DNA from: Microcaldota archaeon
GTDB taxonomy: Archaea > Micrarchaeota > Micrarchaeia > Anstonellales > Bilamarchaeaceae
Direction of reading: 5' to 3'
Length of the DNA stretch: 38,778 nucleotides
NCBI GenBank assembly: GCA_014727975.1
Contig: WJMK01000010.1
Span: forward strand, 1 to 38,778
The translations under genes were made by a program, and so were the position numbers. How positions within the stretch are numbered: the stretch's first letter is position 1; every line of letters starts with the position of its first letter. Shown here in pieces: positions 1-38,778 of this stretch. The notes below the pieces were generated by a model that searched no databases, had not been told where the DNA came from, and worked only from the letters and a program-made list of their open reading frames with translations.

Positions 1-409
1 CTGTGATGTTGAGAAAATCTTCTGCATCCATAAACTCTTCTGTGTTGTTGAGCCAGTCGTCTTCTTCAGGAAGAATTGGCTCTTCCCCGCCTGTTTCGTT
101 TGCAGGAGCAGGGGGCTCGATGGTGCCATTGACCTGAAGGATTCCATCTTCTGATGAAGAGTTTGTAAGGTTTAGGTAAGATTCCACCTCTATGAATTCT
201 GATGCATTATCCTCCTGCCCTGATTGGTTTGTAGAATTGAGGAAATCATCTACTTCTATGAACTCTGTTTCATTGGGGAGGGGCATAGGGGAATCATTCA
301 ATGTGTCGTTGTTTGTGAGGTTTACCCCCGAAAGCAGGAAAACGGTTATGAGCAAAGCTGGGAAGAACATAACAGGAATTGGCCTGGACTCGCTTCGGTC
401 CTCCCACAT
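1..409 (-). CDS. Secreted/membrane-anchored sequon-rich repeat protein, C-terminus truncated by window edge
   Basis: Manual reverse-strand translation from ATG at 409 stays open to the window edge (136 codons): MWEDRSESRPIPVMFFPALLITVFLLSGVNLTNNDT...; hydrophobic N-terminal segment, about 13 N-x-S/T sequons; TATA-like element at 432-440. Not in the ORF track because it runs off the edge. Confidence 0.7.
   Translation of the reverse strand, partial: MWEDRSESRPIPVMFFPALLITVFLLSGVNLTNNDTLNDSPMPLPNETEFIEVDDFLNSTNQSGQEDNASEFIEVESYLNLTNSSSEDGILQVNGTIEPPAPANETGGEEPILPEEDDWLNNTEEFMDAEDFLNIT
2..265 (-). repeat. Three degenerate 12-aa repeats EF[IM][ED][VA]xx[FY]LNxT within the truncated CDS
   Basis: EFIEVDDFLNST (230-265), EFIEVESYLNLT (164-199), EFMDAEDFLNIT (2-37). 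Confidence 0.65.
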
Positions 410-8774: not shown

Positions 8775-9329
8775 AAAATTCTCTTCTCCTTCTTCCATAT
8801 CAGAAAATGAAGCTTCATCCATTGGCGGAAGCTCTCCTTTCGAGCTCTCTTTCTTTTCTGCTGGCCTTTCCGGGACCTTCCCTGGCTCAAAGTATGCCCT
8901 GAATTTATCAGTAAGGAAGAGCTTGGAGCTCCTCCCATATTTGCGCTGGAAAATGAATCCGTTTTCCACGAGCTCGCGCACATCATCATAGACCATCGTC
9001 CCTATGCGCTTCACAACTTCAGACTTGAGGATTCCATTGTGCCTGGCGATATAGGAAAGGGTGCGAAGCGCAGACTTGCTTATGGTTGAGGATTGGGCAA
9101 ACTGCTTTACATGCCCGACATACTCATCCTTTACCCGCATTATGTAGGACCCGTCTGCCTCAAAAATCTCCAGGGAGCTGTTGTTTTTTGCATAGTCCGC
9201 CTGGAGCTCATCAACCATGCCCCGGATGTGCCCTGCTGAAGCAATCCCTGTGAGCTTCTTTAGCTCGGGTACAGAAAGTTCCCTCCCGCTCATGAACAAT
9301 GCAGCTTCAATCAAGCGCTTGGGTTCCAT
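8766..9329 (-). CDS. scpB: Segregation and condensation protein ScpB
   Basis: MEPKRLIEAALFMSGRELSVPELKKLTGI... tandem winged-helix ScpB-like; overlaps the downstream end of the scpA ORF. Confidence 0.88.
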   Translation of the reverse strand: MEPKRLIEAALFMSGRELSVPELKKLTGIASAGHIRGMVDELQADYAKNNSSLEIFEADGSYIMRVKDEYVGHVKQFAQSSTISKSALRTLSYIARHNGILKSEVVKRIGTMVYDDVRELVENGFIFQRKYGRSSKLFLTDKFRAYFEPGKVPERPAEKKESSKGELPPMDEASFSDMEEGEENFSE

Positions 9330-9997
9330 CCGTTCACCTTTATGAAAATCTCTCCCCAGAACCTGTCCTGCCTCAGCCCAACTGCCTTCTCCTGCGCAAG
9401 GTGGAGCAGCGGTGAAAGGGTAAGGATTGTTTCCTTGGGAGTTTTTTGCTTCACGAGCTCGGAGAATAGCACAAGGTTTTCCCCATCCATCTCCTGCTTC
9501 ATTTTTGAGTAAAGCTTCCCCATTTCCTTCTCAATATCATATTCAGGGAGGGGCATCTCTATCACCTCCCTGGGCTTTATCCTGGGCTTCCTGTTCATGT
9601 GCTCCTCGTCATCATACTTTATTACTCTCTCCATCTCCACAATAAGCTCGTTCAGGGTGATTGGTGCCTTGGGAGGAATCCTCGCCTTGATTTGCAGGGG
9701 GGGAATATCGCCTTCCCCTTCCACCTCAATGGGCTCCGGGGGCATCTCAATCTCCTCAGGCTCCTCATACATCCTCAATGCATTGCTCTTGTACTTGAGG
9801 AGGATTGCAGAAGCAAGGATAATGTTCGCAGGCACATGGAACTCAAATTTTTCCATGTCCTTTACTGTTTTCATGAACCCGTCGGCCACCGCCACAATGT
9901 CTATGTCCCAGGGGTCCAGCTTCTCAGATATCACTAGGTCTACCAGGAGCTGCTTCCAGCTGGGCTTTCGCACGATGGACGTGAGGGGGAGGTCCAT
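9311..9997 (-). CDS. scpA: Segregation and condensation protein ScpA (kleisin)
   Basis: SWKQLLVDLVISEKLDPWDIDIVAVADGFM...ASAILLKYKSNAL; typical ScpA N-terminus; paired with scpB. Confidence 0.92.
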   Translation of the reverse strand: MDLPLTSIVRKPSWKQLLVDLVISEKLDPWDIDIVAVADGFMKTVKDMEKFEFHVPANIILASAILLKYKSNALRMYEEPEEIEMPPEPIEVEGEGDIPPLQIKARIPPKAPITLNELIVEMERVIKYDDEEHMNRKPRIKPREVIEMPLPEYDIEKEMGKLYSKMKQEMDGENLVLFSELVKQKTPKETILTLSPLLHLAQEKAVGLRQDRFWGEIFIKVNGWNPSA

Positions 9998-10062
9998 GCC
10001 TGGATTTCTGTTGCAATGCTTATAAATCTTTACTGTATTCTTAATGCAGAAGGGTGCGAATT

Positions 10063-11193
10063 ATGAGGACTATGAAAGCAGATATAATAAATGGGAATGA
10101 GCCGCTCTCAAAGGCCCTGGATGCCATATCCAGGACAGGGACTGCGGTGATGGTTACTAAAAATGGAAAATACTACGGGCTAATAGATGACAGGGTCATC
10201 CGCCCAAACATAAGCGATTCCAGCCGCACAAAGGCAATAAGCGCGGCAGTTCGCGCACCCCGCCTTACTGAGGATATGTCTCTTGAAGAATGCATGCGAG
10301 CATTCATGGCGGGACATTTCAAATCCCTCCCCATTATTGAAAAGGGAAAAATAATAGGGGCTATCAGCCGTGCAGATGTAATGAATGAAATGGTGCGAAT
10401 GGGGAACGTGCCTAAAACAAGTGTTTCGGCATTGATGGCAAGCCCGATATACACAGTTGATGAAAAGGAAACAATGGGGATGGCAAGGGGGCTCATGAGG
10501 AAGCTTGGTGTCCACCACCTTGCAGTAACCAGAAGGGGCAGGGTGTGCGGTTCCCTCTCTCCATTCGATTTTTCAATGCTTTCGCTTAAGCCAAAGGGGA
10601 GGCAGAGGTTTGCCCTCACCTCAGAAATAGACAATCCTGATGAAAAGAAAGTGGTGGAATACCTGCGGGAAAAACTTGTTACGGTAAGGGCAAGCGAGCC
10701 GCTTGAAAGCGCAGCAAGAAAAATGGCCAGGCGCAACGTTTCCAAGCTTGTTGTGCTGGAAGGGGGCAAAGCAGTCGGAGTCCTCACTGCAATAGATGTA
10801 ATGAAGTTCATGCTCAGCCTTATAGAAGAGGGCCCGACAGTGTTCATAAGCGGGCTTCCTGAAGATGATATGTTCTACTATGGAGACATAGAGGAAAGCA
10901 TGAAAAGCACCCTCAAAAAATTCATGAGGAGCTTTGAGCTGGGGGACGTGAATATACACTTCAAGAAAGGAAAATCAACCTACCAGATGAGCAGCAAGCT
11001 GGATGTGGAACATTCAAACCTTGTGGTGCACAGTGAAGGGTATGACCTGAAAACAGTTGTAAACGAAAATCTTGATGAAATAAAAAGGATTCTTAAAAAA
11101 AGAAAGGATTATAAAAGAGACAAAAGGAAACATTACATGACAGAGGGCTTCTATGGAGGCAGGACGGAGAGCTTCTATGAAAGGACAGGTTAG
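10063..11193 (+). CDS. Multi-CBS-domain protein with C-terminal HPF/RaiA-like domain
   Basis: ORF 10054-11193 (GTG at 10054; ATG at 10063 or 10072). About four CBS-like repeats, then VFISGLPEDDMFYYGDIEESMKSTLKKF...VVHSEGYDLKTVVNENLDEIKRILKKRKDYKRDKRKH, similar in pattern to HPF. Confidence 0.8.
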   Translation: MRTMKADIINGNEPLSKALDAISRTGTAVMVTKNGKYYGLIDDRVIRPNISDSSRTKAISAAVRAPRLTEDMSLEECMRAFMAGHFKSLPIIEKGKIIGAISRADVMNEMVRMGNVPKTSVSALMASPIYTVDEKETMGMARGLMRKLGVHHLAVTRRGRVCGSLSPFDFSMLSLKPKGRQRFALTSEIDNPDEKKVVEYLREKLVTVRASEPLESAARKMARRNVSKLVVLEGGKAVGVLTAIDVMKFMLSLIEEGPTVFISGLPEDDMFYYGDIEESMKSTLKKFMRSFELGDVNIHFKKGKSTYQMSSKLDVEHSNLVVHSEGYDLKTVVNENLDEIKRILKKRKDYKRDKRKHYMTEGFYGGRTESFYERTG

Positions 11194-30634: not shown

Positions 30635-31804
30635 ATGAAAATAGCATATTTCACAGACACCTACCTGCCAAACAATGACGGGGTCGTTACCTGCCTGCTC
30701 AATTACAGGAAGGGGCTGGAGAAGCGAGGACATGAAGTATTTATTTTTACTCCGGGCACGAAAAAGCAGAAGCAGGAAAACAAGGACAGCAACGTTTACT
30801 ATTTTACTTCTGCCTCGTTCAAGCCCTACCCTGACTACCGGCTGGCGCTTTTCCCTTTCCAGTCAGCAAGGAAGATGCTGAAGGACATCGGGGTGGACAT
30901 AATCCATTCCCACGGGATTGCAACAACCGGGCTGGCTGCAATAGACTGCGCAAAAAACCTTGGGATTCCGTCAATCGCATCATTCCATACAATGGTCCCC
31001 AGCGCAACCCACTACCTTACAAGCAGGGAAGACATGCAGAAATTCCTGGAGGATGTTTCCTGGAAATACCTTAGGTGGTACTACAAGTTTTTCAGGAGGG
31101 TCCTTGTGCCAAGCACATTTACCCGGCAGGTGCTGGAGAAAGAGGGCATAAGCAACACAACAGTGATGCCTGCAGGCATAAACTACCGGCTCTATTCAGG
31201 CGGGGACGGGGAGTGGATAAGGAAGAGGCACAGGCTCGGGAAAAAGAAGATTGTGCTGCATGTCGGGCGGGTAGTGAAGGAAAAGAACCTGGAGCTGCTT
31301 ATAAATGAGGCCCAGTCAATCATAAACAAGAAATCCAATGTGGTTTTCATAATTGTGGGGAAGGGCCCTGCGGAGGAATATTACAAGAACCTTGTGGCGC
31401 TCAAGGGCCTTGAGGAATATTTTATATTCACAGGCTTCGTCCCCAGAAAAGAACTCCCGGACTATTATGATGCTGCAGATGCATTTGCATTCCCGTCTTA
31501 TTTCGATACGCAGGGGCTTGTGGCGCTTGAGGCAATGGCTGCGGGGCTCCCGGTTGTTGCGCCAGCGCGCTCAGGCTCCTCTGATTTTGTGAAGGACGGG
31601 GAAACGGGGTACCTGTTTAAGGAAGAAGTGGATTTCCGGGAAAAATTGCTGCTTGCGCTTGAAAACGGAAAATGCATGGGGGAAAAATGCAAGGAAGTTG
31701 CGCGCAAATATGATGCAGACAAAAGGGTTGAGGAGCTAGTTGGGTTTTATGAAGAGATTTTAAAGAATGGGAAAAACGGGCCAGCTAAACCTTCATCTCC
31801 TTAA
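30635..31804 (+). CDS. Glycosyltransferase, GT4 family
   Basis: MKIAYFTDTYLPNNDGVVTCLLNYRKGLEKRGHEVFIFTPG...HVGRVVKEKNLELLI...PSYFDTQGLVALEAMAAGLPVVAPARSGSSDFVKDGETGYLF. Confidence 0.93.
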   Translation: MKIAYFTDTYLPNNDGVVTCLLNYRKGLEKRGHEVFIFTPGTKKQKQENKDSNVYYFTSASFKPYPDYRLALFPFQSARKMLKDIGVDIIHSHGIATTGLAAIDCAKNLGIPSIASFHTMVPSATHYLTSREDMQKFLEDVSWKYLRWYYKFFRRVLVPSTFTRQVLEKEGISNTTVMPAGINYRLYSGGDGEWIRKRHRLGKKKIVLHVGRVVKEKNLELLINEAQSIINKKSNVVFIIVGKGPAEEYYKNLVALKGLEEYFIFTGFVPRKELPDYYDAADAFAFPSYFDTQGLVALEAMAAGLPVVAPARSGSSDFVKDGETGYLFKEEVDFREKLLLALENGKCMGEKCKEVARKYDADKRVEELVGFYEEILKNGKNGPAKPSSP

Positions 31805-34340
31805 TCATCTCTGCGAATTCATCCCAGGTTTTCAGTAGCACAGAGCCGGACTGGACTTCGAGCTTAAGCATGGTCCCGCCTTTGTATCCGCTGGAAAGGT
31901 ATTCATAAAACTCGCTTTTCTCTGCCTGCTCTTCAAAGAGTATTATGTTGAGGCCGTTCTTGAGGCTTGAGAGCGCATTAGGTATTACCCTTCCTGCATT
32001 ATCATAGAGATGCACATAGATATCCTGGCCAAGTATTGTAATCTTGGAATCGTAATCTTCGCTTGAATCTGGCGGAGTAAAGGGAACTGCGTTGTTTATG
32101 CAGATGTCCCGGAGCTTCCTGAAGGAGGCAAGGTAGCGGATGGTATTTCCTGCCTCTTCCTCCCAGGAAGTAAGCCCATAGTAATCCAGCTCCTTTTTTA
32201 CAAGGTCCATCCCTGCGAGCCTCAGGAGCAGATACTCAAGGTTGTAGTCGCTTATGAAAAGCGGCTTTCCTTCAAAGAGCATATTTCGGAATCCTCCCTT
32301 GATTTCGCTTAATGTCAGTGGGGTGTTTTTCCATTTATAGCGCTCATTGACCTTTTTGAAAATTTCCAGGAGCTTTTCTTTCTTCATGGGAATTTTGGTT
32401 GTGCTCTGGGGCGGGAAATCGGGGATGTCCAGCCCGTACATTGTAACTCCCTTCCTTGCAAAAAGTATCCCTATCCCAAGTGCAACAACAGCAATCCCTA
32501 TCCCTCCCAGTATCAGGGGATCCTCGAAGATTGAGCGGGAGGCGAACTTCGTTGTTGTTTCAGTAAACTCAAACTCGCCAAGCTCGAATGTGAATGTGTG
32601 CTCTTCATTGGCTGCAAGCGGCCCGCCTGTAAGCTCTGCAGCATCCACCTCCAGGCTTTGGACATTGCTGAATTCCTGCATTGCTGCCTTGTTGCCGTCC
32701 ACATAGACCTGCCCTGTTACCTGCACCGGGGACCCATCAAGGTAAAATGAAAACCTGTAAACATCATTTAAGGTGCTGTGCCTCCCCTGCACAATTTCTA
32801 GGGTGCCAACCCGCATGTAAGACCTTGCATACGCCCGTCCGTCAGAATCAATGATGTTCAGAATGTAGTCACCGCTCGGGAGGACAAATGTGTATGGGAA
32901 GGTGGGCCTTGAATTCAGGGGCACTTTTGCTGTTGCAATTGGCTCCCTGTCGAGCTCAGCAAGAAGCTCAGTAACGGAGAAGAAAAGCCTTTCTTCGCCT
33001 CCCTCCTCATTTAGCTCTGCCATTATGTCCATCTGGGTGGAGCCGAGCCCTGCAGGAGTTATTTCATGCCCCTGTGTGTAAATTTCTCCCTTTGTGCTCT
33101 TCTTGGCGTAAATAACTGTGCTGAAGCCCAGCTGGCTTTCATTATCAAACCCATAAATCTTCAGGTATTTGCTGTCCCCTTCAAATGTAGTGGTGAAAAG
33201 CTGCACAAGGCTCTCGTTGCTGCCGATTTCTACTGTCCTGGAAGCATCTCCAATAGGCGCCAACCAGGGAGTATTCACCACCAAATCATAAACATCAGAT
33301 GCTGCATCCTGCCCATCCTCCCATCCCCCATCCAGGGTTTGCGGAAGGGCAACCAGGTATCCGTCTCCATACCTATATGCGCTGACAGATCCCCTGACCA
33401 GGCTTGCGCCGCTAATTGCATAAAGTGCGCTTTTCATCCTGAATTCCCCTTCTGAAGAAGGGGGAGCGGATTCATCAAAGGTAATTGCAAGAGGGTCAAG
33501 TGCAGCAGGGTTTGAAGAAACCACTGCCCCTTCAGTTGTATACATCCTGAAAAAGGGCTGGCCTATATAAAGGACTGTTACTCCACGTTCAAGAAGCTCT
33601 GTGATGCGGGTATCCTGGCCATTAAGCAGCTCTTCAGGGATATATCCGCTCGGGACTATCACCAGTGACTGGGAAGGCAGTGAAGCAAGCCCGCCCATCC
33701 CTACTTCATTTACAGGGATTCCCCAGTTGGAAAGCGAAGATTCCAGGGAATTTATGAATTCGGGGTATGTTTCGGCCTGGTAGCGGTTGCTCCTCAGAAC
33801 ATAAACCGAGGAGGGCACAACAGAGTTGTATGCCTCGAGCGTGATGGGCACTTCCCCTGCAGGCTCGCCTTTCATCTCCAGCATCACAAATGCTGTGTGG
33901 TAGGGCTCCCTCGGGGCATCTTCCCTGCTCGCAGTAAGAAGGTCGTACGCCTTTACTTCTGCGGAAAGCGATTTTGCTGAGAGGGGGTTAATGACTGATT
34001 CATCCTCATAAACCGTGGACTGGAAAAAGAGCATCCCTGTAACGATAAGGGCTAAAACCAGGAGCAGTGCCCCGCCTGCTTTTATGAGCAGCTTTGTGCT
34101 TACAAGCGGTGGCTTTTCCTCTTCTTTTTTTTGCTCAAGGGCCATTGTGGTGTCCCTGGGCTTCTTTTCCTCCTCCAGGACCACCTTCCCTTTCGGCTTT
34201 TTCCATTTCTCAATTGTTTCCCTGATTGCCTGAAGAGGGGTTTTTTCGACCTTCTTGAACTTGAGCTCACTGGAATAGCGCTTTTTTACATTGAACTGGT
34301 AAGTGCGCTTCTTTATTTTGAGGTCTTTTATGTCAGCCAT
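31785..34340 (-). CDS. Large two-TM membrane protein: basic cytoplasmic N-tail, approx. 500-aa extracytoplasmic region, cytoplasmic C-terminal region
   Basis: 851 aa; TM1 LLIKAGGALLLVLALIVTGMLFF, TM2 PLILGGIGIAVVALGIGILFA; last gene of five-gene operon. Confidence 0.8.
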   Translation of the reverse strand: MADIKDLKIKKRTYQFNVKKRYSSELKFKKVEKTPLQAIRETIEKWKKPKGKVVLEEEKKPRDTTMALEQKKEEEKPPLVSTKLLIKAGGALLLVLALIVTGMLFFQSTVYEDESVINPLSAKSLSAEVKAYDLLTASREDAPREPYHTAFVMLEMKGEPAGEVPITLEAYNSVVPSSVYVLRSNRYQAETYPEFINSLESSLSNWGIPVNEVGMGGLASLPSQSLVIVPSGYIPEELLNGQDTRITELLERGVTVLYIGQPFFRMYTTEGAVVSSNPAALDPLAITFDESAPPSSEGEFRMKSALYAISGASLVRGSVSAYRYGDGYLVALPQTLDGGWEDGQDAASDVYDLVVNTPWLAPIGDASRTVEIGSNESLVQLFTTTFEGDSKYLKIYGFDNESQLGFSTVIYAKKSTKGEIYTQGHEITPAGLGSTQMDIMAELNEEGGEERLFFSVTELLAELDREPIATAKVPLNSRPTFPYTFVLPSGDYILNIIDSDGRAYARSYMRVGTLEIVQGRHSTLNDVYRFSFYLDGSPVQVTGQVYVDGNKAAMQEFSNVQSLEVDAAELTGGPLAANEEHTFTFELGEFEFTETTTKFASRSIFEDPLILGGIGIAVVALGIGILFARKGVTMYGLDIPDFPPQSTTKIPMKKEKLLEIFKKVNERYKWKNTPLTLSEIKGGFRNMLFEGKPLFISDYNLEYLLLRLAGMDLVKKELDYYGLTSWEEEAGNTIRYLASFRKLRDICINNAVPFTPPDSSEDYDSKITILGQDIYVHLYDNAGRVIPNALSSLKNGLNIILFEEQAEKSEFYEYLSSGYKGGTMLKLEVQSGSVLLKTWDEFAEMIKEMKV

Positions 34341-34345
34341 TTAAC

Positions 34346-35074
34346 TCACTGGGCCTGCTGTAGGTAGCCCTGCCTTACAAGGTTGTTGAGCACATCCTCA
34401 ACCCTTGCTTCTGGGACTTTGTTGTATTTTGCAAACTCCACGATGTTGATTGTCCCATTGTGGTCCATAATCCACTCCTGGACCCTTGTGCTCAGGACAT
34501 TGTCAGAAATTCCGCCATGGAGCTTCTCAAAGCGTACCTTGAGCTCATCATTTTCATTCTTCAGCTCATAGTTTTCCTTGGAAAGGCTCTTCACCTGGTT
34601 TTTGTAGATGAGCGAGGACCTCCTGAGATTCTCCACTTCCCGCTTGAGCTGGTCATATTCCTTGTAAAGTGCCTTGTAGTCCCCGGTAGTGTATTCCTCA
34701 AGTTGCCTCATCGTTTCTTCCACAAGCTGGTAAACAACCTTGTTGTCGATATCATAATAGGGCTCAACCAGGGTTACCATGTTGAGCAGGTAGCGCATCA
34801 CATCCAGTTTCCTCTTGGTCGGGGAAACGTTGCTGGGAACAGTATAAATTACTTCGATTTCGTTTTTCTTGAACTTCATCAGGGAAAAGAGGTAAGGTGT
34901 TTTGTCGATGCTCCTGCTTTCGATATATGCTACATTAACTCCCTCTTTCTCCTGCGCAATCTTCAGGAAGGAAATTGTGTTCAGTGCAGATGCAACATCA
35001 GAAAACTTCCCCTGCAGCTTTGCCTTCATCCTGAAACCATCAACTTTGGGCTGGGTTATGCTCTCTCCTGCCAT
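34346..35074 (-). CDS. Coiled-coil protein with C-terminal winged-helix-like segment
   Basis: 242 aa; coiled coil YDQLKREVENLRRSSLIYKNQVKSLSKENYELKNENDELKVRFEKL, then STRVQEWIMDHNGTINIVEFAKYNKVPEARVEDVLNNLVRQGYLQQ. Confidence 0.75.
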   Translation of the reverse strand: MAGESITQPKVDGFRMKAKLQGKFSDVASALNTISFLKIAQEKEGVNVAYIESRSIDKTPYLFSLMKFKKNEIEVIYTVPSNVSPTKRKLDVMRYLLNMVTLVEPYYDIDNKVVYQLVEETMRQLEEYTTGDYKALYKEYDQLKREVENLRRSSLIYKNQVKSLSKENYELKNENDELKVRFEKLHGGISDNVLSTRVQEWIMDHNGTINIVEFAKYNKVPEARVEDVLNNLVRQGYLQQAQ

Positions 35075-35079
35075 TCAGA

Positions 35080-35541
35080 TCACTTCTTTTTTTTCTTCCT
35101 TTTCGGCTTTTTTGGGCTGCTCCTGGGGGAAAGCCTCTTTACAACATCATTCGCAGTGCTTGCCTTGGCGGCTGCGCCTTCCTCGCCCTGGAGTGCGGGC
35201 ACATAGCTGAGGAGTGCAAGCGCAGCAACCATCAGCCCGAGCAAGAGCGCAAAGAAAATGCTCACTATGTTGAAGGGGGCCCCAAGGAGTATTGGGCCGA
35301 GCACAAGAAGCAGCACAAGTATTGCTGCAACTGTTATGTGTATCACTGCCATCTTCTCGAATTTTGAACGCTTCTTTTTGTATTCCTCAAGCTTCTCATC
35401 CGAAACCACGAGCTTGTTGTTTTGCAGGATTCCAAGCTTTTCCTTTATGTTGCGGATTGTGCGGATTATCGCGTCCTCCTTTATTGGGGTGCCCTCTCCG
35501 GGCTCGACTTGCTCTCTTGAAACTATGCACATTCTTGCCAT
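35080..35541 (-). CDS. Small two-TM protein with Lys-rich tail
   Basis: 153 aa; two hydrophobic segments, tail SPRSSPKKPKRKKKKK; 1 nt from upstream ATPase gene. Confidence 0.75.
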   Translation of the reverse strand: MARMCIVSREQVEPGEGTPIKEDAIIRTIRNIKEKLGILQNNKLVVSDEKLEEYKKKRSKFEKMAVIHITVAAILVLLLVLGPILLGAPFNIVSIFFALLLGLMVAALALLSYVPALQGEEGAAAKASTANDVVKRLSPRSSPKKPKRKKKKK

Positions 35542-35542
35542 T

Positions 35543-37120
35543 CTATCCCTCCTCCAGGATTACCTGGGTTATGTCCCTGTCCAGTATGTCTGCCTTTCGC
35601 TTGTCTGCTAACGTAAAGATGTTGATGATGGTGGTATCCTCAATCCCGATTTCCTTCAGGAACATAGTTATATTGGAGCGCTCCACCCCGAACCTTTCCA
35701 GAAGGATAATGAATGACGCAATGTCCATGTGCCTGCTTTTCTGGTCGAAAAGCCGCACAATCTCTTCTATCCTGGCATCCCCAAGCCCGAACTCGCGGAG
35801 CCTCCTCTTAAGATTGTCTTTTTTGAATGATACGCTTCTTGCCACATCAACCGCCTCTTTCTGCTTTTTTGTAAGGACCTTGGAAAGGTCCAGGAAGAAT
35901 TCGCGCATGGGCTCTTCTCCCTCTATTTTATCTATCAGGAAGGTGGAGGGATAAGGCGCTGCGCTTGAAAAAGACATGTTCACTGCACATGATCCCACCC
36001 CAAACTTGGATATCTCGTCCCTCATGAATTCGCTGAAGTTAAGGGAACCCTGGAGGTAATCCAGGAATTTCTCGAACTTAACCTTGAGTATGAATGTTGT
36101 CCCTACATTCGAGAAGATTGCCTCTGCAATGTCTGTGGGGTTCTGGGAGGCAACAATAAGCCCGAAGTTATATTTCCTCCCCTCCCTGATAATCATCACT
36201 GCATCCGAGTTCTCATCCTTGCCGATTTTCCAGGCCTCGTCCAGGACCACGATGAGGCGCAGGCCTTTTGCCTTTGCCCATCCTGCAGCGCGCATCCTCT
36301 CCTTGATGAACTGGAGCATTGCAAGGGCCCCCAGCGCCCTGAACCTCTCATCAGGGAGCCCTGAAAGGTCCAGCGCAACAAGCCCGGACCCGGTAAGCTC
36401 GGTGAGGCTTACGGTACTCTGCTGTGCGAAGTAATCCTCTCCCGGCTTTGTGAACTGCTTGAGCCTGTAAATTGCGTTTTCCAGCTCCGCGGGGAACTCA
36501 TATGTTCCCATTGACGCCTTTTCCTCCAGGATTTTCACCACGTCCTTGAGGGTCGGCGCCTGGATCGGCCTCCCCAGCTCATCCCTCTGCTCTTTTGCCT
36601 CCATCCTGAACTTGTTGTCCCTGTATGCTTTTTCTATCGCCTGCTCGGTAAGCCTTTTCTGCTCGGGGTACTGGTCAACATCAGTAAGGATTGCAATTGT
36701 GCGCATTACCTGCTTGATGCGGTCGTAGGGCTTCATCCCTCCCAGGTCCAGGAGGTTGAGGTAGGAGCCTTTCCCCAGGGAGATTACCTTCCCCCCTGTC
36801 ATCCTTACCCACTGCTTGTATTCTCCTGCCCAGTCAATTATCAGGGCATTGGAGTCCCAAACGAATGATGCCCTTGTAAGGAAAGTCTTGATGAAGTATG
36901 ATTTTCCTGAGCCTGTAATTCCCACGATTGCAAGATGCGGGTTGGTCACATACTGGTAGGTCCAGTAAAAAGGGGCATTGAGCATCTTGGTCCTTCCCAC
37001 ATAAATTGAATTGGTGGGGTCCTTGCAGAGCACCTCCATGGGGGGCTCTGGTGGATGGACCAGGATATTCCTGCTCGCTATGTCCCTGTTGGGCAGTTTG
37101 CTTACAAAAAGCCTTCCCAC
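35543..37120 (-). CDS. HerA/VirB4-type P-loop ATPase
   Basis: NPHLAIVGITGSGKSYFIKTFLTRASFVWDSNALIIDWAGEYKQWV...LRLIVVLDEAWKIGKDENSDAVMIIREGRKYNFGLIVASQNPTDIAEAIFSNVGT. Confidence 0.9.
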   Translation of the reverse strand: MGRLFVSKLPNRDIASRNILVHPPEPPMEVLCKDPTNSIYVGRTKMLNAPFYWTYQYVTNPHLAIVGITGSGKSYFIKTFLTRASFVWDSNALIIDWAGEYKQWVRMTGGKVISLGKGSYLNLLDLGGMKPYDRIKQVMRTIAILTDVDQYPEQKRLTEQAIEKAYRDNKFRMEAKEQRDELGRPIQAPTLKDVVKILEEKASMGTYEFPAELENAIYRLKQFTKPGEDYFAQQSTVSLTELTGSGLVALDLSGLPDERFRALGALAMLQFIKERMRAAGWAKAKGLRLIVVLDEAWKIGKDENSDAVMIIREGRKYNFGLIVASQNPTDIAEAIFSNVGTTFILKVKFEKFLDYLQGSLNFSEFMRDEISKFGVGSCAVNMSFSSAAPYPSTFLIDKIEGEEPMREFFLDLSKVLTKKQKEAVDVARSVSFKKDNLKRRLREFGLGDARIEEIVRLFDQKSRHMDIASFIILLERFGVERSNITMFLKEIGIEDTTIINIFTLADKRKADILDRDITQVILEEG

Positions 37121-37130
37121 ATTTATCTCC

Positions 37131-37946
37131 TCACAGTATGCTCTCTTCTATTGCCTTCGGGCCGGAGGGGAATGCGTATTCCCATTCAAAGCATCTCTTC
37201 ATCTCGTCTGCAGTCAGTTGCTCTACCTGCACATTAAGCGCGTTCTGGAGCGTTACTTTTACCTCCCTTACCTGGGCGCGGAGGGTTGCCACCGCAGACT
37301 CTTTAGAAATTCCTGATGCAGAAGTCATGGCATATGCAAGCACCCCCATGGGCCTTACCCCTTTTATCAGGCGCTGGAGCTGGGTGTCCCACATGCCGAT
37401 TTCCCTTTCGTACTTGTCCATCTTGAGCACATCGGGCTCGGCCTTGTCCCTCTCCCTTGCAAGCCTGAGCTGGGCTTCTGCCTTCCTTGTTTCAATCATC
37501 CTTCTTTTTTCCGCAACATCCTCTGCATAAAGCAGGTAGCAGATTTTCACTGCATACCTCATGTTGGAGATTGCCCTCTCGAAATACTTGTTGTATGCAA
37601 CATTCTGGTCCGGGGTCCTTTCTGTTGCAGACTCATAAATCCTTATTGCAAGAAATGCTGATGCATAATACTCGTTTCCTACCTTCTTCACTATCACATC
37701 CTGTGAAGGGGGAATCTCATATCCTGTGTCTGTTATCATCACTATTTTCTGCCTTTCTGTAAGAAGAGGGACAACAATATACCCGTATTTGAAGAAAACC
37801 ACTCCTCCAAGCCCTCCCAAGCCGGCTAAAAGTCCGCCAATAAGGCCAAGCCATCCGCTCGCGCTTGAGCTGATGGCCATTACCGCGCCCAGGAATGCCA
37901 GGCCAATTGAAGCATACATTAAGTTTTTGGCAGTAAGTTGCGCCAT
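37131..37946 (-). CDS. Membrane-anchored protein resembling PrgI/VirB4 N-terminal region
   Basis: 271 aa; N-terminal TM pair, then DVIVKKVGNEYYASAFLAIRIYES...and GVRPMGVLAYAMTSASGISKESAVATLRAQVREVKVTLQ...; first gene of operon. Confidence 0.6.
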   Translation of the reverse strand: MAQLTAKNLMYASIGLAFLGAVMAISSSASGWLGLIGGLLAGLGGLGGVVFFKYGYIVVPLLTERQKIVMITDTGYEIPPSQDVIVKKVGNEYYASAFLAIRIYESATERTPDQNVAYNKYFERAISNMRYAVKICYLLYAEDVAEKRRMIETRKAEAQLRLARERDKAEPDVLKMDKYEREIGMWDTQLQRLIKGVRPMGVLAYAMTSASGISKESAVATLRAQVREVKVTLQNALNVQVEQLTADEMKRCFEWEYAFPSGPKAIEESIL

Positions 37947-37977: not shown

Positions 37978-37987
37978 GTTTATAAAC
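37978..37987 (-). promoter_or_regulatory. TATA-box of the five-gene operon
   Basis: Minus-strand GTTTATAAACC about 32-41 nt upstream of ATG at 37946. Confidence 0.5.
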
Positions 37988-38010: not shown

Positions 38011-38778
38011 CTACCCGATAGCGGAATCCACAATTGAATCTGCCATCCCCAGGTAGGTGGCCGGGTCCATCAACTCATCTAGCTCCTTTTCGCTGAACTG
38101 CTTTCCCGCTTCGCTTTCCTTCAGCACTTCCCTGAGGGGCTTCTTTTCCCTAAATGCTTTTTGGGCTACTTCGCGTACTGCTTCATGGGCTTCCTGCCGG
38201 CTCATGCCTTTTTCCACCAGCGCCATCATGACCCTCTCACCCATCACCAGGCCCTTAGTAAGCTCAAGGTTGCGCTGGATGTTTTCGGAATAGAATTCCA
38301 GGCCTTCAAGAATTGCTGCCATCTGCTTTGCCATGTAATCAGTAACTATGAAGCTTTCTGGAAAAATAAAGCGCTCGTTTGCAGAGTTTGTGAGGTCGCG
38401 CTCATGCTCTAAGGGAATGTTCTCAAGTGCTGTCTGCACGTTTGCGCGGACTACGCGCGCGAGGGAGCAGATTCTCTCGGATTTGTGCGGGTTTCTTTTG
38501 TGGGGCATGGTGGAGGAGCCAACCTGCTTCTTTCCAAATGGCTCTGAAATTTCACCCATTTCCGGCCGGGAGAGGTTGCGGATTTCTTTTGCCATCTTCT
38601 CTAAGGTTCCTGCGATTATTCCAAGGGTGCAGAGCACCTGCGCATGCCTGTCCCGCTGGATTACCTGGGTGGAGATTTTTGCGGGTTTCAAATCCAGCTC
38701 CTCCATCACAAGCTCCTGCATCTGAATTCCTTCCCTGCCGAATGCAGCCATCGTGCCGGTTGCCCCGCTCATCTTCCC
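38011..38778 (-). CDS. purB: Adenylosuccinate lyase, C-terminal part (N-terminus beyond window)
   Basis: GSSTMPHKRNPHKSERICSLARVVRANVQTALENIPLEHERDLTNSANERFIFPESF; fumarase/ASL signature; frame open to window edge. Confidence 0.93.
   Translation of the reverse strand, partial: GKMSGATGTMAAFGREGIQMQELVMEELDLKPAKISTQVIQRDRHAQVLCTLGIIAGTLEKMAKEIRNLSRPEMGEISEPFGKKQVGSSTMPHKRNPHKSERICSLARVVRANVQTALENIPLEHERDLTNSANERFIFPESFIVTDYMAKQMAAILEGLEFYSENIQRNLELTKGLVMGERVMMALVEKGMSRQEAHEAVREVAQKAFREKKPLREVLKESEAGKQFSEKELDELMDPATYLGMADSIVDSAIG

Follow-up and report, generated by a model that had tools for sequence, protein, structure and literature searches.

The closest described relatives of the gene block analysed here are Ced and Ted, and its components place it near them in the type IV secretion superfamily. 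The Ced system of Sulfolobales (CedA, CedA1, CedB, CedD and CedE) shares with the block a chromosomal location, the lack of a relaxase and parts of VirB2, VirB4 and VirB6 type, although in the block the first and last of these are assigned only tentatively; it likewise possesses two ATPase paralogues, along with two VirB6 paralogues, and the N-terminal domains of CedB and CedD match different parts of the VirB4 N-terminal domain. In the Ted system of Thermoproteales, a pilin, a VirB6-like protein and a VirB4-type ATPase are equally linked on the chromosome. For Candidatus Micrarchaeota, a DPANN phylum with the present name Microcaldota, and for DPANN archaea in general, the exchange of material with the host is a long-standing open question for which few testable gene sets are available.

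The operon and its conservation in Micrarchaeota

The window, i.e. the whole analysed stretch of 38,778 nt, is one entire contig (C5) of a 1.07 Mb genome (G000) that is 88% complete. Its minus strand carries at 31785-37946 five ORFs with intergenic gaps of 10, 1, 5 and 5 nt, an operon referred to as locus A:

37979-37986, minus strand: putative TATA box of archaeal type, TTTATAAA, ~33 nt ahead of the operon's first ATG
37131-37946, minus strand: p271, ORF of 271 aa; predicted VirB3-like transmembrane hairpin fused to a VirB4 N-terminal-type domain, the putative membrane anchor of the motor
35543-37120, minus strand: ATPase of 525 aa with GTG start; VirB4/Ced-type motor domain and a helical C-terminal domain of ~100 aa
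36899-36922, minus strand: Walker A motif GITGSGKS (ATPase residues 67-74), carried by 97/97 orthologues
36227-36241, minus strand: Walker B motif DEAWK (ATPase residues 294-298), invariant in 18 aligned orthologues; 0/97 orthologues with DEAH
35080-35541, minus strand: p153, ORF of 153 aa; membrane protein with a Lys tail
34346-35074, minus strand: p242, ORF of 242 aa; N-terminal domain, coiled coil and C-terminal winged helix
31785-34340, minus strand: p851, ORF of 851 aa; two transmembrane helices around a beta-sandwich ectodomain

The ORF coordinates bear out a preliminary description of this DNA, made from its letters, which had listed five minus-strand genes with gaps of 1-10 nt; the TATA element that it placed upstream of 37946 corresponds to the box at 37986-37979, an assignment from sequence only; a scan for sigma-70-type promoters is uninformative in an archaeon. 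The membrane topology proposed there also stands, with a hairpin in p271, a hydrophobic segment followed by the Lys tail in p153 and two transmembrane helices in p851.

With respect to the neighbourhood, a convergent glycosyltransferase gene (30635-31804) overlaps the 3' end of p851 by 20 nt (31785-31804). Purine biosynthesis genes are found beside both ATPase loci of the genome: a purB-like gene (Pfam; 38011-38772, minus strand of the window) adjoins locus A, and purF- and purD-like genes, recognized by reading the sequence alone, adjoin the second locus, locus B (L003:2237-3628, minus strand, and 8792-10126, plus strand).

At E<=1e-40, 246 of the phylum's 295 genomes encode a homologue of the ATPase; among the near-complete Micrarchaeota genomes, 89 of 96 do so. 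Identity is about 53-93% among the matches listed; nearly all named relatives among the best 80 of 322 loci are Candidatus Micrarchaeota. The order p271-ATPase-p153-p242-p851 is kept in all of the first 20 loci examined. Across the synteny sample of 100 loci, which includes some genomes twice, the p271 gene immediately precedes that of the ATPase in 89 of 92 loci with room for it, or 91 of 92 once two exceptions are explained by a run of N in the assembly (L113, where the p271-ATPase fusion is only apparent) and a broken ATPase frame (L149), and the downstream gene order is kept in 75/77 loci. These counts cover Micrarchaeota only and do not extend to sister DPANN phyla. The genes flanking the block differ between lineages. 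As the order is kept across loci with tight spacing (median gaps of 4-12 nt) while p851 orthologues diverge down to ~20% identity, the operon arrangement is not due to chance. A failure of the genes to co-occur in relatives had been named in advance as grounds to reject a translocation system; the synteny comparison finds them together phylum-wide.

Components of the putative machine

Judged by profile scores, the ATPase is of VirB4/Ced type and meets the VirB4-type criterion of the type IV secretion superfamily, albeit below curated cut-offs. NCBIfam models score 75 bits for CedD, 75 for CedB, 63-68 for VirB4-like families and 50 for HerA, and the Pfam DUF87 match reaches 61.5 bits; the paralogous ATPase on contig C15 scores 104 bits with CedB and 58 with HerA. 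Every family score stays below its curated cut-off, with the ATPases at 70-104 bits against a CedB equivalog cut-off of 700. The catalytic residues are invariant in 18 aligned orthologues and a SQxPxD motif is found in 97/97. As the alignment with CedB begins only at CedB position 251, the N-terminal domain is missing from the ATPase chain; p271 could supply these N-terminal ~250 residues. At the other end of the chain, the C-terminal helical domain is in several families a separate gene for ~100 aa right after the ATPase (L046:9284-9583, L049:6753-7070, L043:9018-9314). A search for defence systems with PADLOC retrieved only generic HerA/DndH/mad8 ATPase matches with partner genes that do not fit, and was discarded.

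The AlphaFold model of p271 (72 sequences, pLDDT 86.5) displays a two-helix membrane hairpin (residues 6-26 and 32-66) followed by an alpha/beta domain. Its top five Foldseek matches in the PDB are all chains of the R388 inner-membrane complex (VirB3/VirB4) with probability 1.00, the best being 8rtb_A (described as TrwM/VirB3-TrwK/VirB4-TrwI/VirB6-...), while the sixth is an unrelated protein with probability 0.41. At E 0.01-0.02 and a best TM-score of 0.39, combined with the clear ranking and probability, the match is remote but specific. Sequence profiles identify no related family for p271. Its reading as a VirB3-like hairpin joined to a VirB4 N-terminal-type domain is an inference from a modelled fold; by that fold, p271 meets the criterion of a VirB4 N-terminal domain with VirB3 hairpin as a separate polypeptide, Ced being a precedent for ATPases that match different parts of this domain. 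A TM-anchored VirB4-N-like protein had been proposed for this position, and the fold supports it.

Less can be said about the three remaining gene products. Two CxxC motifs of zinc-ribbon-like type occur in 42/97 orthologues of p153 and have been lost in the genus of the window. The coiled coil and the probable winged helix of p242 rest on weak Pfam matches. The model of p851 (pLDDT 85.9) predicts a cytoplasmic N-terminus, transmembrane helices at residues 82-110 and 608-626 around an ectodomain (residues 125-600), and, at residues 654-850, a conserved domain in the cytoplasm whose fold is unidentified, in agreement with the two-TM protein with a large extracytoplasmic region expected beforehand. 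The beta-rich ectodomain of ~480 residues has an Ig/macroglobulin-type beta-sandwich, and Foldseek retrieves complement/TEP macroglobulin and fibronectin beta-sandwich chains; as such generic beta-sandwiches dominate the search, no specific function is claimed for it. The p851 of the window has no Pfam match, and the 56 members of the family have three, all weak, one of them MG2. Surface proteins of ~2000 aa that are encoded directly downstream of p851 in some lineages (L135:15677 onward, L139, L148 and L155) constitute a single family; a protein of >1371 aa encoded on contig C35 of the window's own genome has no detectable kinship with them.

Locus B (L003) is equally tightly packed and encodes an 81-aa pilin-like protein, a 313-aa polytopic protein, a 259-aa p271 homologue, a 480-aa ATPase and a 232-aa p242 homologue (p232, L003:7974-8672, after the ATPase). 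In the tree of p271-like proteins, the locus B copies are united in a single clade (99/98), which joins the upstream copies from some families with support of 93/88. The polytopic protein belongs to a VirB6-like family with 13 genes in this genome, namely a six-gene array on C35, a six-gene array on C44 and the copy in locus B; both arrays are on contigs without an ATPase gene, which counts against the proposed machine, and C35, next to whose array the >1371-aa protein is encoded, carries two further pilin-like genes, three in total in the genome. Fermentimicrarchaeum limneticum, like several other lineages, has the whole set assembled in one operon, with one gene for a pilin-like protein, six for polytopic proteins and two for p271, besides the ATPase, a ~100-aa gene resembling the ATPase C-terminus, p153, p242 and p851. 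The VirB6-like family is found in 91/97 genomes; some families typically yield 7-9 matches, the order of the window 13-17. It is also absent from 6/7 ATPase-negative genomes (hypergeometric 7e-9), a value that overstates independence as the absences come from about four families only.

By sequence, the polytopic proteins do not qualify as VirB6: Pfam and NCBIfam yield no VirB6/TrbL match, and the one tryptophan reported as invariant in VirB6 is not conserved. They are called VirB6-like only because of their topology, their place in the operon and a weak relation of their profile to that of the pilins. The same kind of profile link has been reported for CedA/CedA1 and VirB6/VirB2 (PMC9905601). 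The only PDB profile matches of the family are to ABC transporters, at 7e-4 over ~90 columns of hydrophobic helix, and were set aside. The pilin-like proteins consist of a two-helix core and a signal-like segment, which is absent in the 81-aa protein, and match TrbC/VirB2 (26.6 bits, cut-off 27.9; E 7e-6) and T4SS_pilin (2e-4) just below the cut-offs. Some lineages have a tandem of three pilin-like genes ahead of the block (L145:7824-9060, L149:7626-9017, L142:794-2057). A large AAA protein with ~nine predicted transmembrane helices followed by tandem AAA-like domains is encoded near the C35 array at L158:13535-16279.

Function and alternative explanations

Cumulatively, it is probable that the five genes specify the motor and envelope components of a translocation machine that is chromosomal, derived from type IV secretion and conserved in Micrarchaeota, best read as a domesticated and stripped-down Ced/Ted-like derivative. 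The hairpin and domain of p271 would dock a ring of the VirB4-type ATPase to the membrane, as is done in bacteria by VirB3 and the VirB4 N-terminal domain. The ring may power a channel built from the polytopic VirB6-like proteins together with a pilus of VirB2-like pilins, to which p851 would contribute its Ig-like ectodomain with the cytoplasmic domain, with p153 and p242 as putative cytoplasm-facing adaptors. While the linkage of the genes and their co-occurrence, the type of the motor, the p271 fold, the pilin-like relatives, the absence of a MobA-type relaxase and the lack of a credible coupling protein are observed, the assembly of ring and channel, and loci A and B working together, are inferred only. 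A domesticated translocation machine had already been considered plausible in the preliminary description, and a near-universal, non-mobile, syntenic block fits it; operon and machine type stood, but the second ATPase locus, the VirB2-like pilins and the VirB6-like arrays were missing from that account, as they lie on other contigs.

By analogy with Ced/Ted, the likeliest function is that the machine exchanges or imports DNA, perhaps taking it from the host, a reading held with about even confidence; cargo and direction are inferences only, and no data demonstrate them or expression of the genes. The main rival retains the machine and changes the cargo: as a secretion or exchange organelle in contact with the host, it would move proteins or metabolites instead of DNA, and docking would occur via the pilins, the p851 ectodomain and the giant surface proteins. 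This possibility, somewhat behind DNA exchange, derives its weight from host dependence, which applies to Micrarchaeota with cultured hosts (PMC5498576, PMC11329633), from a 21-nm barrel of unknown composition with which the DPANN archaeon ARM-1 docks host nanotubes, from giant nanohaloarchaeal Ig-repeat proteins that carry a VirB4-like ATPase, and from the tandem VirB6 arrays of host-dependent Rickettsiales; the Ig/macroglobulin-like p851 ectodomain and the ~2000-aa surface proteins after p851 in one lineage also speak for it. However, no effector or coupling protein has been identified, the ARM-1 nanotubes are interpreted as host-derived, and no evidence was obtained that ARM-1 encodes the operon. 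A bolder proposal, speculative and rather doubtful at present, is a DPANN-specific class of type IV secretion system in which a split VirB4 motor serves a channel that is assembled from six distinct VirB6-like subunits and topped by an Ig-type ectodomain, an envelope organelle, possibly the ARM-1 docking barrel, that draws DNA or nutrients from the host.

That the ATPase instead belongs to DNA repair as a helicase of HerA type, its neighbours being unrelated to it, is suggested by its DUF87/HerA-family match and by PDB HerA chains, which lead the sequence search. Yet the Ced and VirB4 models score above HerA, the Walker B motif is DEAWK and not DEAH, the neighbours including membrane proteins stay together phylum-wide, and the same genome encodes on C44 a separate HerA (118 bits) and NurA, 5-6 kb apart; therefore the role of repair helicase does not fall to the operon ATPases, which fail the criterion of HerA orthology and NurA linkage, and repair is very improbable. 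The initial label VirB4/HerA is hereby sharpened to VirB4/Ced, and plain HerA repair, which would have refuted translocation, does not do so.

Equally remote is the possibility that the block is part of an integrated element, conjugative or viral, for which the VirB4-type motor, the pilin-like genes and the proposal of conjugative elements in islands of Mancarchaeum (PMC5498576) could be invoked, as MobA-type relaxases (PF03432, that family only) occur in 0/60 genomes, no credible VirD4 coupling protein is found in these 60 (marginal partial matches in five, best ~20 bits, none in the window's own genome), no related viral contig and only a single partial plasmid match (37%) were retrieved, and the chromosomal order is identical in nearly all genomes. 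The lack of relaxase and VirD4 first noticed in the window thus extends to the phylum sample, and conjugation is an unlikely function.

Comparison with known systems

No published description of the system was found in the open-access papers searched, the subscription literature not being covered. As a concrete candidate, the block could account for the passage of DNA or other molecules through the envelope of tiny host-dependent archaea; near-universal in one phylum and present in the complete genome of F. limneticum, the gene set lends itself to a search of existing proteomes from cultured Micrarchaeota. It extends Ced/Ted-type derivatives of type IV secretion from Thermoproteota to DPANN.

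In contrast to Ced, the N-terminal-type domain is a separate, hairpin-anchored protein, each array is made up of six VirB6-like genes, and p153, p242 and p851 are added; unlike Ted, the block is devoid of Rad50, HerA and ParA genes and combines the split motor with arrays and extra modules. Together with the failed Ced equivalog cut-offs, these features define a variant distinct from Ced/Ted. The Rickettsiales systems (rvh/vir) share a virB3-virB4-virB6 operon in which 4-5 VirB6 paralogues stand in tandem, an arrangement that the six-gene arrays parallel, but belong to diderm cells, possess VirB8-VirB11 and VirD4 and retain the invariant VirB6 tryptophan. The MPF-FATA-like systems of Patescibacteria are also those of host-dependent ultrasmall cells, with VirB4 in most genomes alongside VirB2, VirB3 and VirB6 and mostly no relaxase, whereas they commonly include the TrsD coupling protein, have VirB4 as one full-length chain, and are not known to comprise VirB6 arrays or a p851-type protein. 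Finally, the giant SPEARE-type proteins of nanohaloarchaea, also DPANN, link an Ig-type ectodomain to a VirB4-like motor by fusing the ATPase to the giant protein, while in Micrarchaeota ectodomain protein and motor are separate and are accompanied by VirB6-like arrays.
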